Positions 21,750 to 26,775 of a DNA stretch of 64,000 nt are shown here, piece after piece. Position 1 is the first letter of the stretch, and every line of letters begins with the position of its first letter. The stretch lies in the NCBI GenBank assembly GCA_017640665.1, contig JAEPQE010000005.1, positions 1 to 64,000 on the forward strand, in the 5' to 3' direction. Both the position numbers and the translations under genes were made by a program. The notes under the pieces were generated by a model. It was not told the origin of the DNA. It saw nothing but the letters and a program-made list of their open reading frames with translations, and searched no databases. The stretch comes from Balneolaceae bacterium. GTDB taxonomy: Bacteria > Bacteroidota > Rhodothermia > Balneolales > Balneolaceae.

Positions 21750-23111
21750 CTAAGAGTCTAATCGTTTAATAAAAATATTCCGGAAGTGTACTTCATTTCC
21801 ATGATCCTGAAGCAGGATATTTCCTTCTTCCCACGTACCAAAGCCCGGCCAAACTTCATATTTACTTTCATTCACAAGTTGCTGGAATTCAGGGGTATTC
21901 CGATCATATTCGAGTACTTTTCTACCATTAAGCCAGTGTTCTACATGATCTCCCCTGGAAATAATCCTGGCATGATTCCATTCGCCAACCGGATGGATGG
22001 GTTTATCTTCCGCCTTAATCAAATCATACAAAGAAGCGACCGTTCGGCTACCCGGTTGTGCTCCCAGTTTGGCATCCGGATGCAGGTCATCATCCAAAAT
22101 CTGATACTCCAGACCAATGGAAGAACCTTCGCCTTTATTCAGATCCGCATCCACAAAATATTTAATCCCGCTGTTAGCGCCGGAAGTTACCTTAAAATCT
22201 ACCCATAGTTCGAAATCGCTAAACAATTCACGAGTTACGATATCTCCCGCTGCAGCAGATTCGGATCCACCCGACTCGTGAATGGTTACCAGTCCATTTT
22301 CAACATCCCAACCGATACCTTTTTCAGAATAAGGAAATTCTGCAGAGCGGGCACCTCGCCATTTATCCATACTGGTTCCATCGTAGAGCAGTTCCCACCC
22401 CCAGTCTTCCTGGCTGTGCGTTAGTTTATTGTACATATCTTTAGCCGGAAGTGGAGTCTCCATGGCATATTTTCTAAGGTTTTCAGTAATAAGTCTGATG
22501 TTTCTCCACTGAATATCAATTCCAATTGCATCATCTGAATAGATTTCATGGACCTGAAGTGCAATGAATCCTTCAGCTGTGCGATCATCAATTAAATGCG
22601 AAACGGGTATTCCATTCACCCAGGTTCTGATTGTATCGCCAATCGCTTCAACCCGAAATTTATTCCATTCTAAATGTTTGTATGCAGCCTGCGCTTCAGG
22701 CATATCTATGAGTGGATGTAACCAACCTCGTCGGGCTTCATCATAAATTCCGCCTGTCCAGGCTCGTTCGGAAGGATCAATCTCAACTTGATAGCCATGG
22801 GTCCTACCATCTTGAAATTCAGGAATACTATTACTTCGTATTTGAACTCCTGAATTAGTTTCGGCAGACAGTTTTACTTCATATTCGAGGATAAAATCTG
22901 AATACGTCTGATCGGTTCTTAGAAAGGAATTGGGAGTGTTTGGAACTGTGATTCCAACAATAGCTCCATCGGTTACAGAATATTCAGCTACCCCCCCTAT
23001 TTGTGTCCATCCGTTTAATGTTTTTCCATCAAAAAGTAGTTGCCAGGGTTCTTGTTCTGCCTGACAAGTAATTAAAAAAAAGCTTAGTAAAAGTAGAGTG
23101 GTGAGTTTCAT
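21750..23111 (-). CDS. Lipoprotein with two DUF1080 (3-keto-disaccharide hydrolase) domains
   Basis: A 453-residue lipoprotein (signal ending LITC, Cys16). It has two copies of the DUF1080 concanavalin-like domain: the first starts WQLLFDGKTLNGWTQIGG (residue 23) and ends near 208; the second starts WELLYDGTSMDKWRG (about 239) and runs to the end. Both have the core 'SGVQIRS'/'SGIKYFVD' strand and the NxWNhhri-like 'WNKFRVEAIGDTIRTWVNG' and 'WNHARIISRGDHVEHWLNG'. DUF1080 proteins include 3-keto-glycoside hydrolases, which fits the two downstream oxidoreductases. It is the promoter-proximal gene of that minus-strand group. Confidence 0.92.
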   Translation of the reverse strand: MKLTTLLLLSFFLITCQAEQEPWQLLFDGKTLNGWTQIGGVAEYSVTDGAIVGITVPNTPNSFLRTDQTYSDFILEYEVKLSAETNSGVQIRSNSIPEFQDGRTHGYQVEIDPSERAWTGGIYDEARRGWLHPLIDMPEAQAAYKHLEWNKFRVEAIGDTIRTWVNGIPVSHLIDDRTAEGFIALQVHEIYSDDAIGIDIQWRNIRLITENLRKYAMETPLPAKDMYNKLTHSQEDWGWELLYDGTSMDKWRGARSAEFPYSEKGIGWDVENGLVTIHESGGSESAAAGDIVTRELFSDFELWVDFKVTSGANSGIKYFVDADLNKGEGSSIGLEYQILDDDLHPDAKLGAQPGSRTVASLYDLIKAEDKPIHPVGEWNHARIISRGDHVEHWLNGRKVLEYDRNTPEFQQLVNESKYEVWPGFGTWEEGNILLQDHGNEVHFRNIFIKRLDS

Positions 23112-23248
23112 TTGGAAGCGATTTTAGGATTCTACGGGAATATAGTTAATGCTCCCAATAGGGCAAATTTTGGGAAAATTTATCATATGTAATTTGAGAT
23201 AACGAAGATTGTTTTCCTTGAGGGAGACTGAAATCACACTTATGGAAT

Positions 23249-23272
23249 TTCTCCCGAAGGGATGTCTTCAGC
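23249..23272. repeat. Second short dispersed repeat, copy 2
   Basis: TTCTCCCGAAGGGATGTC followed by TTCAGC matches 17886-17910 in most positions. The same gap (23112-23373) also has a CCCTCC/GGAGGG hairpin near 23350 and no recognisable gene. Confidence 0.4.
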
Positions 23273-23373
23273 AAAAGGGAGGACCGTAGTGCCTAAAAGC
23301 TTTAAATCCTCACTGTCCCTTTCCCAGCGCCAAAATAAGTTTTGGTTCTGCCCCTCCCCCAAGGAGGGACATT

Positions 23374-23931
23374 TTACTCTAATAGCTTACTGAAATTACT
23401 TTCAGATACAAGTTTGGGCCTTCTTTTTGAACTTTTTCCACTTGCACTAATTAACAGTGAATACAGTTCTTCAAGTATTGTTTCGTCATAATTAAATCGT
23501 TTGGAAATTATGTACACTTCTTTCGCGCCACAATGTTCTGCAGAATCTCTTATCGCCCTGCGTTCTATTTCAGTAATCCCCCCTTCAGGCTCGTAATCTA
23601 AATTCATAATGAAAATAGCAGTCGTTACATACCACTTATCTGTAAGCTTTCTCAAAACTGCTCTCAGGGTCATTTCAAAGACTTCAAAATCTGAAATAAT
23701 AACACCTCTTGGATGATTTAAAGGGTCTATTTTTTTAGAAAATTCCTCCTGCATCCAACCATTTGTATCTACACTGGAACTTATTACCTGAATACTTTTT
23801 ACTCTGTAGTCATCACTGATTCCAACATCTGTTTTGGTCTTTAACCAGTTTCCATTCTCAAAGCATTTTACGTAGAGTGTTCCACGTCCTATTTGAACAA
23901 AAAAAGATCTATTTAAAGACTTAAAATACAT
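23374..23931 (-). CDS. Half-length MreB-like protein
   Basis: A 185-residue protein that looks like only the first half of MreB (normally ~340 residues). The section SDFEVFEMTLRAVLRKL aligns by eye with MreB 'ADFxVTEKMLxxFIxKv', and GGITEIERRAIRDSAEHCGA, then KEVYIISK, aligns with 'GxTxVERRAIRESAxxAGAREVxLIEE'. The N-terminal nucleotide loop 'DLGTANT' is replaced by VQIGRGTLY. The chain ends before the second phosphate motif (DIGGGTTE) and the adenosine motif, so it should not bind or hydrolyse ATP like MreB. It overlaps the HAD gene by 11 bases and is translated with it. Not obviously a pseudogene because the frame is intact with its own end. Confidence 0.75.
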   Translation of the reverse strand: MYFKSLNRSFFVQIGRGTLYVKCFENGNWLKTKTDVGISDDYRVKSIQVISSSVDTNGWMQEEFSKKIDPLNHPRGVIISDFEVFEMTLRAVLRKLTDKWYVTTAIFIMNLDYEPEGGITEIERRAIRDSAEHCGAKEVYIISKRFNYDETILEELYSLLISASGKSSKRRPKLVSESNFSKLLE

Positions 23932-24634
23932 CTCGTACTCCTAAAGCTTCTTTCAGCACCTCAAAATCATCGAAGCATAAATCAGGTAAAGTTGCTTCAA
24001 ATTCGTTGGGGTTAGATATATACCAGGCGACTTTCCACCCTGCTTTAAGTCCGCCTTTTACATCAGATGTGATCGAATCTCCTACATAGAGTATTTTATC
24101 TCTCGGAACTCCGGCTATTTCTGTAGAATGATCGAATATTTTTTGATGGGGTTTCATTACCCCCACTTCTTCTGAGATGACAATCTGGCTGGTTGTTTCT
24201 TTAAAACCAAACTGTTCAATTTTCATCCATTGAGTTTCTGCAAAACCGTTCGTTATAATTCCTGTTCGATATTTCGAAGCAATGGCATCATACGCTTCTT
24301 TGGCACCATCAATCCATTCCCAGTGATTGCGGTAATAGCTCATATATACTCTCCCGGCCTCTTCATATAAATCCGGATCGATATCAAGTTGTATGAAGGT
24401 CTCTTCAAACCTGCGCCTATGTAGAATGTGCCGATCGATTTCACCTCTGCCATATTCTTCCCACAATCCTTTATTGATGTGATGGTAGGTATCAATAAGG
24501 CTCTTCAGAGAAATGGAGTTAAAAACATCGAAATGCTGATGAACATCTGCCAATCCGTTTTGTTCTGCCTTTTTGTGATTAAGAAGGGTGTCATCTAAGT
24601 CAAAATAAATGAATTCGGGATTGAGAACTGACAA
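23921..24634 (-). CDS. YjjG-family HAD nucleotidase/phosphatase
   Basis: A 237-residue HAD hydrolase. Motif I is FDLDDTLLNH (residues 10-19), motif II is GIITNGFAET (Thr/Asn, about 107), the Lys is in VGVMKPHQKIF and motif IV is ILYVGDSITSDVKGG. The cap domain and spacing match the YjjG group, which removes phosphate from non-canonical pyrimidine nucleotides. Its start is 93 bases from the divergent lemA gene. The downstream half-MreB gene overlaps its end by 11 bases. Confidence 0.9.
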   Translation of the reverse strand: MSVLNPEFIYFDLDDTLLNHKKAEQNGLADVHQHFDVFNSISLKSLIDTYHHINKGLWEEYGRGEIDRHILHRRRFEETFIQLDIDPDLYEEAGRVYMSYYRNHWEWIDGAKEAYDAIASKYRTGIITNGFAETQWMKIEQFGFKETTSQIVISEEVGVMKPHQKIFDHSTEIAGVPRDKILYVGDSITSDVKGGLKAGWKVAWYISNPNEFEATLPDLCFDDFEVLKEALGVRDVF

Positions 24635-24727: not shown

Positions 24728-25318
24728 ATGAAGGGAAAAGTTATAATCGGAATTGTGGTAGTTATTCTTATCGCCTTTTTTGGTATAAGCGTAAATAACA
24801 ACCTCGTTGAAAGAGAGGAAAGCGTGGAAAGCGCTTGGGCACAAGTTGAGAATCAGTATCAACGCAGGGCAGATTTAATACCTAACCTGGTAAACACCGT
24901 TCGTGGTGCGGCTGACTTCGAACAGGAAACCTTAACTTCAGTAATTGAAGCAAGAAGTCAGGCTACTTCTGTTAACATAAGTTCAGATGATTTGAATGAC
25001 CCGGCCAAGCTTCAGCAATTCCAGCAAGCTCAGGCTCAATTAAGTGGTGCTTTATCAAGGTTATTAGTTACGGTAGAGCGTTATCCTGAATTGAAAGCGA
25101 ATTCCAACTTCAGAGATCTTCAGTCTCAGCTGGAAGGAACAGAAAACCGTATTTCTACAGAAAGAAAACGATTCAATGACGCTGCTCAATCATATAATAC
25201 TTCGATAAGGAAGTTTCCTACAAGTATTTTTGCTTCAATTGGCGGTTTTGATCGAAAAGCTTATTTCGAGGCAGATCAAGGCGCTGAGCAGGCTCCTGCG
25301 GTAGATTTTAGTAATTAA
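24728..25318 (+). CDS. lemA: LemA family protein
   Basis: A 196-residue membrane-anchored protein with one N-terminal helix (about residues 4-22, IIGIVVVILIAFFGI) and a long helical bundle. The family signature is visible in ESVESAWAQVENQYQRRADL followed by IPNLVNTV, and in the C-terminal FNDAAQSYNTSIRKFPTSIF. The function of LemA is unclear; it is usually next to TPM-domain proteins, as here. It is the first gene of a three-gene plus-strand group. Confidence 0.95.
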   Translation: MKGKVIIGIVVVILIAFFGISVNNNLVEREESVESAWAQVENQYQRRADLIPNLVNTVRGAADFEQETLTSVIEARSQATSVNISSDDLNDPAKLQQFQQAQAQLSGALSRLLVTVERYPELKANSNFRDLQSQLEGTENRISTERKRFNDAAQSYNTSIRKFPTSIFASIGGFDRKAYFEADQGAEQAPAVDFSN

Positions 25319-25339
25319 TTTAAATGACAAAAGCCTAAA

Positions 25340-25360
25340 GACCACCGACCTACGGTGGTC
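25340..25360. repeat. Hairpin between lemA and the first TPM gene
   Basis: GACCACCG and CGGTGGTC form a perfect 8-bp stem with a five-base loop. There is no T-run, so it is not a terminator; it looks like an intergenic palindromic unit that could protect or process the lemA transcript. Confidence 0.5.
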
Positions 25361-25388
25361 GATAGTCTGCCGTCCATCGTCCCACTCC

Positions 25389-25835
25389 ATGGCTAAATTT
25401 TTATCAAAAGAAGAAGAAAAAACTATTATCTCGGCTATTAAAGAAGCAGAATTAAATACTTCAGGAGAGGTCCGGGTACATATCGAACCAAGATGTAAAG
25501 CTGATGATCCGGTTACAAGAGCTAAAGAAGTGTTTTCAGAATTAGGAATGCATGAAACTGAACTCCATAATGGAGTAATCATTTATGTAGCAACTAAAGA
25601 TCATAAGATGGCTGTTTGGGGAGATAAAGGAATTCACGAAAAAATAGGCCAGGCTTTTTGGGAAGATGAGATTGCTTTGATGAAAAAGTATTTCCAGGCA
25701 GACGATTACGAAAGTGGGTTAAGAGATGCAATTCTGATGGTTGGTGATAAATTGAAGGAGTTTTTCCCTTATCAAAGGGATGATATTAATGAGTTGGATG
25801 ACGAGATTAGTTACGGGGGAAAGGAAGATGAATAA
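25389..25835 (+). CDS. TPM-domain protein (cytoplasmic type)
   Basis: A 148-residue protein with a single TPM domain and no signal peptide. The pattern FLSKEEEKTIISAIKEAELN (start), TSGEVRVHIEP, HNGVIIYVATKDHKMAVWGD and the helix LRDAILMVGDKLKEFFP is that of the short TPM proteins that follow LemA in many Bacteroidota. Its biochemical role is unknown. The stop (25833-25835) lies inside the start of the next gene, so the two TPM genes are coupled. Confidence 0.9.
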   Translation: MAKFLSKEEEKTIISAIKEAELNTSGEVRVHIEPRCKADDPVTRAKEVFSELGMHETELHNGVIIYVATKDHKMAVWGDKGIHEKIGQAFWEDEIALMKKYFQADDYESGLRDAILMVGDKLKEFFPYQRDDINELDDEISYGGKEDE

Positions 25836-26775
25836 TTATCCGGTTAAAGTCTTTGCGAAGAATCCGGCGAAGCAGATTTTGAAGCAATCTCAACGTTTCA
25901 ACTTAGAACAAAGAGATTGCTTCGTCGAAGAAATAGAACCTGCTGGTGTTAAAACCAGACTCATCGCAAAGACAGTTACTTTTATTCTTCTACTACTTGT
26001 CTCCTTTTCTTCAGTCTTTGCCCAAAATTTTGATTTTCTACCTGATCGACCAACAGGTATGGTGAATGACTATGCCGATATGCTTACAACAAGTGAGGAA
26101 CAACAGCTGGAACGTAAACTCATCAATTACAGAGATACTACTACAAATGTAATTGCCATTGCTACTTTGGAAAGCCTTGAAGGTAATTCTGTTGAAGAAG
26201 TTGGAACTGAACTATTCAACAATTGGAGGATGTGGGAAGGTGACAGATACAATGGTGTTTTAATACTTATTTCTGAAAGTGATCGTGCTATTCGAATTGA
26301 AGTAGGTTATGGGCTTGAAGGAGCAATACCAGATGTTATGGCTAACCGAATCATCAACGAAATCATTACTCCGAGTTTCCGAAATCAAGATGTATTCGGG
26401 GGGCTTGATCGTGCTACCAGTGCAATGATCCAGCTTGCTTCGGGAGAGTTTGAAGGCACACCTGAAGGATTAAGCAGAAGCAACGGAGATGGAGGTATTC
26501 CAATAGATGTCATCATTATTATTGTAGTGATTATTATTTTTATCATCTCCAAAGGAGGCAGAGGTGGTCGTGGAAATCGAAGAAGAACTTTCGGTCCGGA
26601 AGATGTGGTAGAAGCTTTATTCTGGAGCCAGGTTTTTGGTGGGGGAAGAAGTCGCGGAAGCGGAAGCTCTTGGGGAAGCGGTGGATTCGGTTCCGGTGGC
26701 GGAGGCGGTTTCGGTGGATTCTCCGGCGGTGGCGGTTTTGGTTCCGGTGGCGGTGGTGCGAGTGGGGGCTGGTAA
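25828..26775 (+). CDS. Membrane TPM-domain protein with glycine-rich tail
   Basis: A 315-residue YgcG-like TPM protein from the ATG at 25828 (the longer frame from 25780 overlaps the previous gene). The signal peptide is unusually late: the hydrophobic core VTFILLLLVSFSSVFAQ lies at residues 50-66. The TPM domain follows (VNDYADMLTTSEEQQLERKL, YNGVLILISESDRAIRIEVG), then a helix of Ile/Val (about residues 224-237) and a Gly/Ser-rich tail ending GGASGGW. Residues 8-49 are encoded by a dispersed repeat, so the native protein probably began with MNNYPVK directly before the hydrophobic core. Confidence 0.9.
   Translation: MNNYPVKVFAKNPAKQILKQSQRFNLEQRDCFVEEIEPAGVKTRLIAKTVTFILLLLVSFSSVFAQNFDFLPDRPTGMVNDYADMLTTSEEQQLERKLINYRDTTTNVIAIATLESLEGNSVEEVGTELFNNWRMWEGDRYNGVLILISESDRAIRIEVGYGLEGAIPDVMANRIINEIITPSFRNQDVFGGLDRATSAMIQLASGEFEGTPEGLSRSNGDGGIPIDVIIIIVVIIIFIISKGGRGGRGNRRRTFGPEDVVEALFWSQVFGGGRSRGSGSSWGSGGFGSGGGGGFGGFSGGGGFGSGGGGASGGW
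25849..25973. repeat. Inverted-repeat element inserted inside a signal-peptide coding region
   Basis: The outer ends GTCTTTGCGA (25849-25858) and TCGCAAAGAC (25964-25973) are exact inverted copies; inner arms GAAGCAATCTC (25881-25891) and GAGATTGCTTC (25913-25923) are also exact. Elements of this kind (GTCATTGCGA...GCAATCTC) are common between genes of Bacteroidota. Here the element is in frame within the 5' part of the TPM gene. Confidence 0.8.

Follow-up and report, generated by a model that had tools for sequence, protein, structure and literature searches.

A half-length MreB-derived protein of a Balneolaceae bacterium that retains the equivalent of the MreB dimerisation helix

A gene of 185 codons in the genome of a Balneolaceae bacterium encodes a protein, here called half-MreB, which descends from the first half of MreB, has lost the nucleotide site of its ancestor, and has preferentially kept the segment equivalent to the MreB dimerisation helix together with the strand that follows it. 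Purifying selection acts on this gene between two species, the one analysed here and a second member of the genus (genome G039). It lies in the window, by which we mean the whole stretch of 64,000 nucleotides that was analysed (positions 1 to 64,000 of contig JAEPQE010000005.1, assembly GCA_017640665.1). We are close to certain that half-MreB is a real, selected, and MreB-derived gene. The function that we propose is far more tentative, and we give it somewhat less than an even chance: half-MreB would be a nucleotide-free, one-domain MreB paralog that acts on MreB through the face bearing the dimerisation helix. The features of the locus are collected in Table 1.

Table 1. Features of the half-MreB locus (positions in the window; residue numbers refer to half-MreB)
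Feature	Position	Strand	Basis
Half-length MreB-like gene, 185 aa	23374..23931	-	Window ORFs (ATG at 23931, stop ending at 23374); Pfam MreB_Mbl match; G039 ortholog; omega = 1 rejected
Residues 10-22, degenerate first strand and phosphate-1 loop, FFVQIGRGTLYVK replacing a DLGTAN-type loop	23866..23904	-	Alignment to own MreB
Residues 99-104, KWYVTT, where own MreB has KWYSTT	23620..23637	-	Alignment
Residues 121-134, EIERRAIRDSAEHC, equivalent of the MreB dimerisation helix	23530..23571	-	11/14 identical to own MreB; excerpts of PMC4051119 and PMC5624674
Residues 135-142, GAKEVYII, strand after the helix; Lys144 lies beyond	23506..23529	-	Alignment
Residues 150-163, predicted extra helix with no match to MreB sequence	23443..23484	-	Low-confidence models
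Residues 165-173, GKSSKRRPK, basic tail, also in the G039 ortholog	23413..23439	-	Ortholog alignment
YjjG-like HAD phosphatase gene upstream, sharing 11 bases with the start of half-MreB	23921..24634	-	Pfam, NCBIfam
Divergently oriented lemA gene, beyond yjjG	24728..25318	+	Pfam LemA

Family searches place the protein with MreB. Half-MreB passes the cutoff of the Pfam family MreB_Mbl (PF06723; 33.2 bits against 27, E 3.3e-8, residues 76-144), as does its G039 ortholog (32.1 bits), while its scores of 37.1 and 33.1 bits against the NCBIfam MreB models stay far below the subfamily cut-offs of 293 and 365.75 bits, which are those of full-length proteins. PDB entry 4cze is matched at E 0.0013, and all six distinct sequences found in the structure database are MreB entries, a result that is the same with a two-species profile. 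Homology to MreB is clear over about residues 60-146, residues 1-60 aligning weakly, and it stops before the second phosphate motif. With its own stop after 185 residues, and with 179-183 residues in the ortholog, the protein falls short of the two-domain size of about 330-360 aa. The preliminary description of this DNA, made from the letters alone, was therefore right to place here a half-length MreB-like reading frame that corresponds to the first half of MreB and has a C-terminus of its own. A full-length mreB (357 aa) is present on another contig of the same genome, and the genes adjoining it are taken for mreC, mreD, and mrdA on the strength of their sequence and order rather than of a family search.

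The codon usage score of the half-MreB frame, 0.081, is near that of the reference (0.088, sd 0.025, from 25 chunks of eight long window ORFs), and two shifted frames score -0.014 and 0.011; codon usage alone is indecisive on the strand, because one antisense frame scores 0.073. The G+C content of half-MreB (0.344) is lower than that of yjjG (0.395), which in turn is lower than that of the window (0.407). No repeats of at least 14 bases were found in window positions 23100-23400, and promoter-like sites are about as frequent as chance would have them (5, with an expectation of 4.7).

The G039 ortholog occupies the same site behind yjjG and is 44% identical over 179 codons. A dN/dS ratio near 1 among relatives, named beforehand as an argument against the preliminary description, was not what we found, as a codon model of the two genes rejects omega = 1 (2dlnL 55.8). 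Half-MreB nevertheless evolves fast, with a dN of 0.54 against 0.14 for yjjG, 0.08 for lemA, and 0.01 for mreB; since dS is saturated in all four genes (at least 3.15, and unbounded for half-MreB), we use from these comparisons the dN values and the rejection of omega = 1 and nothing else.

The loss and retention of MreB residues are uneven along the protein. We aligned the N-terminal halves of MreB from up to 44 loci and counted how many of the residues at least 90% invariant among them are kept by half-MreB, its G039 ortholog, and a distant half-length protein from genome G012, described below; a fourth half-length protein, from G107, was left out of this count. Half-MreB keeps 1/10 of these residues at the first strand and phosphate-1 loop, 4/17 in the IB region, 8/20 from the RPL motif to the next helix, 7/9 in the helix, 5/6 in GAKEVYII, and 0/8 in the subsequent segment containing the catalytic Glu, whose position (E140 in Caulobacter) is taken by Lys144. 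For the same segments in order, the ortholog keeps 1, 4, 7, 6, 5, and 0, and the G012 protein 0, 0, 5, 4, 4, and 0. The absence of the DLGTANT loop, which had been noted from the start, is thus confirmed by the near-complete turnover around phosphate-1. Helix and strand together, EIERRAIRDSAEHCGAKEVYII, retain 12/15 near-invariant residues in half-MreB against 13/55 elsewhere (Fisher p 1.1e-4), 11/15 against 12/55 in G039 (p 3.7e-4), and 8/15 against 5/55 in G012 (p 5e-4). When only the RPL segment serves as the comparison, the excess becomes marginal (p 0.037 for half-MreB, 0.041 for G039); all of these p-values are descriptive only, because the segments were picked after the preliminary description had named the block. 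Upstream of the helix, the KWYVTT segment would, by its position, correspond to the hydrophobic loop of MreB and is possibly membrane-contacting; the loop as such is described for MreB in the excerpt of PMC4051119.

The conserved block singled out in the preliminary description coincides with the helix reported to mediate inter-protofilament dimerisation in MreB (PMC4051119, excerpt). According to the same excerpt, the main helix of this kind in Caulobacter MreB spans Ala117-Ala130, the V118E substitution leads to single protofilaments, and E. coli cells with the matching V121E stay spherical. Caulobacter MreB has AVERRAINDSCLNA at this site, as read from the structure match, and numbering its Val as 118 puts an Ile at 123 and an Ala at 130, in agreement with the residue names in the excerpts of both papers (PMC4051119, PMC5624674). 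Residue 140, the catalytic Glu in PMC4051119, then falls two residues past the Ile138 of that sequence. Residues 121-134 of half-MreB align to this helix, with Ile122 at the position of Val118 and Lys144 at that of Glu140. The initial idea that the protein copolymerises with or blocks MreB would thereby gain a concrete surface. Lateral action on MreB has precedents: binding to the flat face is the proposed means by which CbtA blocks MreB (PMC5624674, excerpt), and the MreB paralogs of B. subtilis add laterally to each other's filaments (PMC7641798, excerpt).

Structure prediction bears on the fold class at most. The unguided model of half-MreB (pLDDT 43) has an order of strands and helices that fits actin subdomain I, and it gave no significant fold match and no match to MreB. 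A model guided by six MreB rows reached pLDDT 53 and pTM 0.56, and Foldseek matched it best to two MreB structures and a model of Mbl (E 5e-4 to 1e-3, query TM-score 0.40 to 0.44). In VIA, the guided model matched many MreB chains at Z of about 8 to 10 (4cze: Z 9.2, rmsd 2.4, 100 aligned), but it shows the actin fold class at most, because other actin-fold proteins come within about 1 Z of MreB (BeeR 9.4, Arp4 9.1, propionate kinase 8.8). Ribosomal proteins are matched too, at E near 5e-3, and as its alignment contains MreB, the guided model is not independent evidence for the fold. In several of its matches the aligned range ends at the C-terminal residues of MreB; this weak model hints that the extra helix at residues 150-163 may replace MreB's own C-terminal part.

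The product of the upstream gene scores 149 bits against TIGR02254, just under the curated cut-off of 159.9, and passes that of the general HAD_2 family (78 against 23.8). The half-MreB gene of the window starts at an ATG within the final codons of yjjG. Its G039 counterpart has the corresponding ATG one base past the end of yjjG, and its frame is open from an overlapping TTG start as well. This arrangement suggests translational coupling of the two genes. A yjjG match was obtained in 78 of the 92 family genomes. Among the 30 family yjjG loci that were read, two have the half gene behind yjjG and 28 are without it (one of the 30, G091, ends about 360 bases past yjjG, where a whole gene could not show). 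The coupling with a YjjG-type phosphatase that the preliminary description had reported is hence real in the window and in G039 and does not extend to the other loci read; among those examined, the pairing is positional and genus-specific. On the upstream side, a lemA-like gene was seen in 19 of the 20 loci viewed, and in G039 as well. In the window, lemA and two TPM-domain genes (Pfam) follow one another at 24728-26775, and similar-looking genes stand upstream of yjjG in most loci viewed. The heptamer TGTCCCT is found in both the stretch at window positions 23310-23370 and the intergenic stretch behind yjjG in the third genus member, G040 (L039); in G040 it forms the inverted repeat CTGTCCCTCTCCGGAGAGGGACAG, and in the window only a short terminator-like hairpin lies near it.

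A second type of half-length protein, shorter than that of the window, was found when profile A1 was searched over 128 genomes of the order. It consists of two further short frames, one in G012 (131 aa from its ATG) and one in G107, whose proteins are similar to one another (E about 1e-19) and, more distantly, to MreB proteins (E 4e-6 to 8e-4; four of the four MreB proteins compared for G012, one of four for G107). A profile comparison aligns this type to the window type over 82 columns with 98% probability. The Pfam MreB_Mbl cutoff is not reached by either protein, G012 scoring 14.5 bits and G107 giving no MreB match at E 0.1, and no yjjG is present among the ORFs viewed around the two frames. 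All four half-length proteins group together (support 99/98) in a 49-row tree built from N-terminal halves. Their branches, of 1.1 to 3.4, are long, so that a single origin is not claimed, and the tree singles out no MreB parent for them. In the G107 frame (L077, 3800-3826), no ATG, GTG, or TTG precedes a TTG reading MSRIS. An ATG frame, MFSTLFKK, resembles the start of the G012 protein and runs into a stop directly after six A, so that a frameshift, real or due to a sequencing error, is likely. Several family genomes have two to four MreB-type matches each; the three divergent full-length copies that were read, in G041, G043, and G073 (L079, L080, L081), keep a DLGT(A/V/S)N loop, and mreC or mreD were not seen among the ORFs around them.

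Some MreB-type match occurs in 90 of the 92 family genomes, and half-length frames of the window type occur in the window genome (G000) and in G039 only. Conservation of the gene across the group, proposed as a check in the preliminary description, did not hold up, as the gene is present in two of the three genus genomes analysed, being absent from G040, and in no other of the 92 from the family. A search with the N-terminal profile A3 recovered it from 2 of the 244 genomes of the class and from 2 of the 394 of the phylum, and a search with the G012 protein likewise identified 2 of 394 phylum genomes. In a class search with profile A5, among the matches listed, which reach E about 3.5e-7, the rows besides G000, G039, G012, and G107 are at least 336 aa long, with the exception of a 200-aa row from G522. 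A further short frame of 230 aa in G049, met in the family and order searches, begins at a contig end and was set aside. A scan of an 84,980-species collection returned six loci, all of them full-length MreB, and would miss diverged halves because it uses exact peptide patterns. A phage origin was rejected, with no match in 50,697 phage records, and so was a plasmid origin: 5 of 72,556 plasmid records match at 27.8 to 32.1% identity, and the three of these five that were examined are full-length MreB genes. The viral contigs scanned contained no relative of half-MreB, and two weak PHROGs matches (E 0.083 for the G039 protein, 0.021 for the G107 protein) were not taken as kin. In the titles and abstract starts of the open-licence PMC articles found, we met no description of a protein of this kind.

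By DNA identity, G039 is the most distant of the three genus members (73-74% against 79% identity around mreB; 73-76% against 81% around yjjG), which would date the gene to the common ancestor of the three members or earlier; a gain in or before that ancestor with a loss in G040 is the simplest history on these identities. The MreB protein tree contradicts them, pairing G000 with G039 (100/95) and leaving G040 outside, on tiny branches. Under that topology a gain after the G040 split would do, and the gene could be younger than the three-member ancestor. The interval between yjjG and the following gene measures 287 bases in G040, and the searches found no remnant of half-MreB in it.

The mechanism that we consider most likely would begin with the duplication and truncation of mreB, with loss of ATP binding and of domain II, and would leave a one-domain product composed of subdomains IA and IB, with a new helix at the C-terminus perhaps closing the domain. 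Half-MreB and the YjjG-like phosphatase would be made from one mRNA, and half-MreB would be located at the membrane, where its helix could dock on the flat side of full-length MreB and replace the opposite strand. Without an ATP site and domain II, half-MreB should not form a filament of its own; it would therefore limit or tune, in a dose-dependent manner, the formation of antiparallel double filaments, and hence the wall-elongation machinery. A stricter variant, in which half-MreB is a natural strand cap that pairs with one MreB protofilament, stops the second, and arose once or more in the class, seems to us improbable. The main doubt about docking in general is that the helix is also part of the fold core, so its retention may serve folding. 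A dN of 0.54 also fits poorly with a tight interface to a nearly unchanging MreB, and the absence of the gene from G040 and the poor unguided model likewise count against this reading.

Alternatively, half-MreB could be a co-opted actin-fold domain that makes no contact with MreB and acts on another partner, such as the HAD phosphatase, a nucleic acid, or, via the basic tail, the membrane. We hold this to be rather doubtful, though of appreciable weight: both genomes with the gene have it immediately after yjjG, with its ATG at or in the yjjG end, it diverges fast, and the basic tail is present in both orthologs. Against this reading, the dimerisation helix is preferentially kept by each of the three half-length proteins for which residues were counted, yjjG is missing from the ORFs viewed around the second half-length type, and 28 of the 30 family yjjG loci read have no half gene. 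It is unlikely, in our judgement, that half-MreB is instead a positive scaffold, positioned beside MreB filaments at the membrane, which recruits or positions wall enzymes and leaves strand pairing unblocked. Such a role would agree with the nearly identical first residues of the two orthologs (MYFKSL-RS-F), their N-terminal hydrophobic moments as a helix (0.51 and 0.45, computed without a control), the KWY loop kept in the window protein, and the co-assembly of MreB paralogs (PMC7641798, excerpt); yet nothing found sets it apart from the blocking model, and no wall-synthesis gene is present among five Pfam-scanned neighbours and the phosphatase.

The remaining explanations deny the gene a function or its existence. 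In favour of a decaying, functionless MreB fragment are the absence of the gene from G040, the failure to find it in 242 of 244 class genomes, its high dN, and a G+C content below that of its neighbours. We nonetheless find decay very improbable, given that omega = 1 is rejected and that none of 1000 neutrally simulated copies stayed free of stops at any of three divergences, whereas neither species has a stop. The amino-acid identity of the pair is 0.44 at a DNA identity of about 0.55; simulated means were 0.26 (maximum 0.39) at a DNA identity of 0.57 and 0.20 (maximum 0.30) at 0.50, with the caveat that at 0.64 they were 0.35 with a maximum of 0.46. That an error of sequencing or assembly has split a full-length mreB paralog is of negligible probability in our view, and we found no point in its favour: the 262 bases between the half-MreB stop and the next gene are too few for the missing second half of MreB, and G039, an independent species, has a protein of the same length with a C-terminus of the same kind.

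To our knowledge, the cellular control of the pairing of MreB's two antiparallel strands is an open question. If action on MreB through the dimerisation-helix face is the true function of half-MreB, the protein, having the pairing half alone, would be a ready probe for separating strand pairing from ATP-driven filament growth, and may be a built-in regulator of cell shape. It would also show how a truncated actin paralog turns regulator. The principle that a shortened duplicate modulates its full-length parent is found in human SRGAP2C, which acts on SRGAP2A.

Among known proteins, half-MreB is most directly compared with MreB, Mbl, and MreBH (PF06723), which it resembles from about residue 60 to 146, a stretch that presumably comprises subdomains IA and IB, and with which it shares the dimerisation helix; unlike MreB, it is without the phosphate-1 loop, the catalytic Glu, and domain II, has 185 rather than 357 aa, evolves fast, and lies outside the mre cluster. 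In B. subtilis, MreB, Mbl, and MreBH (PMC7641798, excerpt) likewise provide extra MreB-family proteins beside the main MreB, but those paralogs are full-length and polymerising. CbtA and its homologs YkfI and YpjF (PMC5624674, excerpt) have the same proposed target, the flat face of MreB, and would likewise interfere with double filaments; CbtA, a toxin of 124 aa that is paired with an antitoxin, is not presented as MreB-derived in the excerpt, and it is likened to half-MreB by proposed target and outcome, with no claim of kinship in sequence. If our reading is true, half-MreB would be a self-derived counterpart to such flat-face inhibitors. As a truncated-paralog regulator, it would have its parallel in human SRGAP2C of SRGAP2A (PMC6904453, excerpt), an unrelated protein of a eukaryote.
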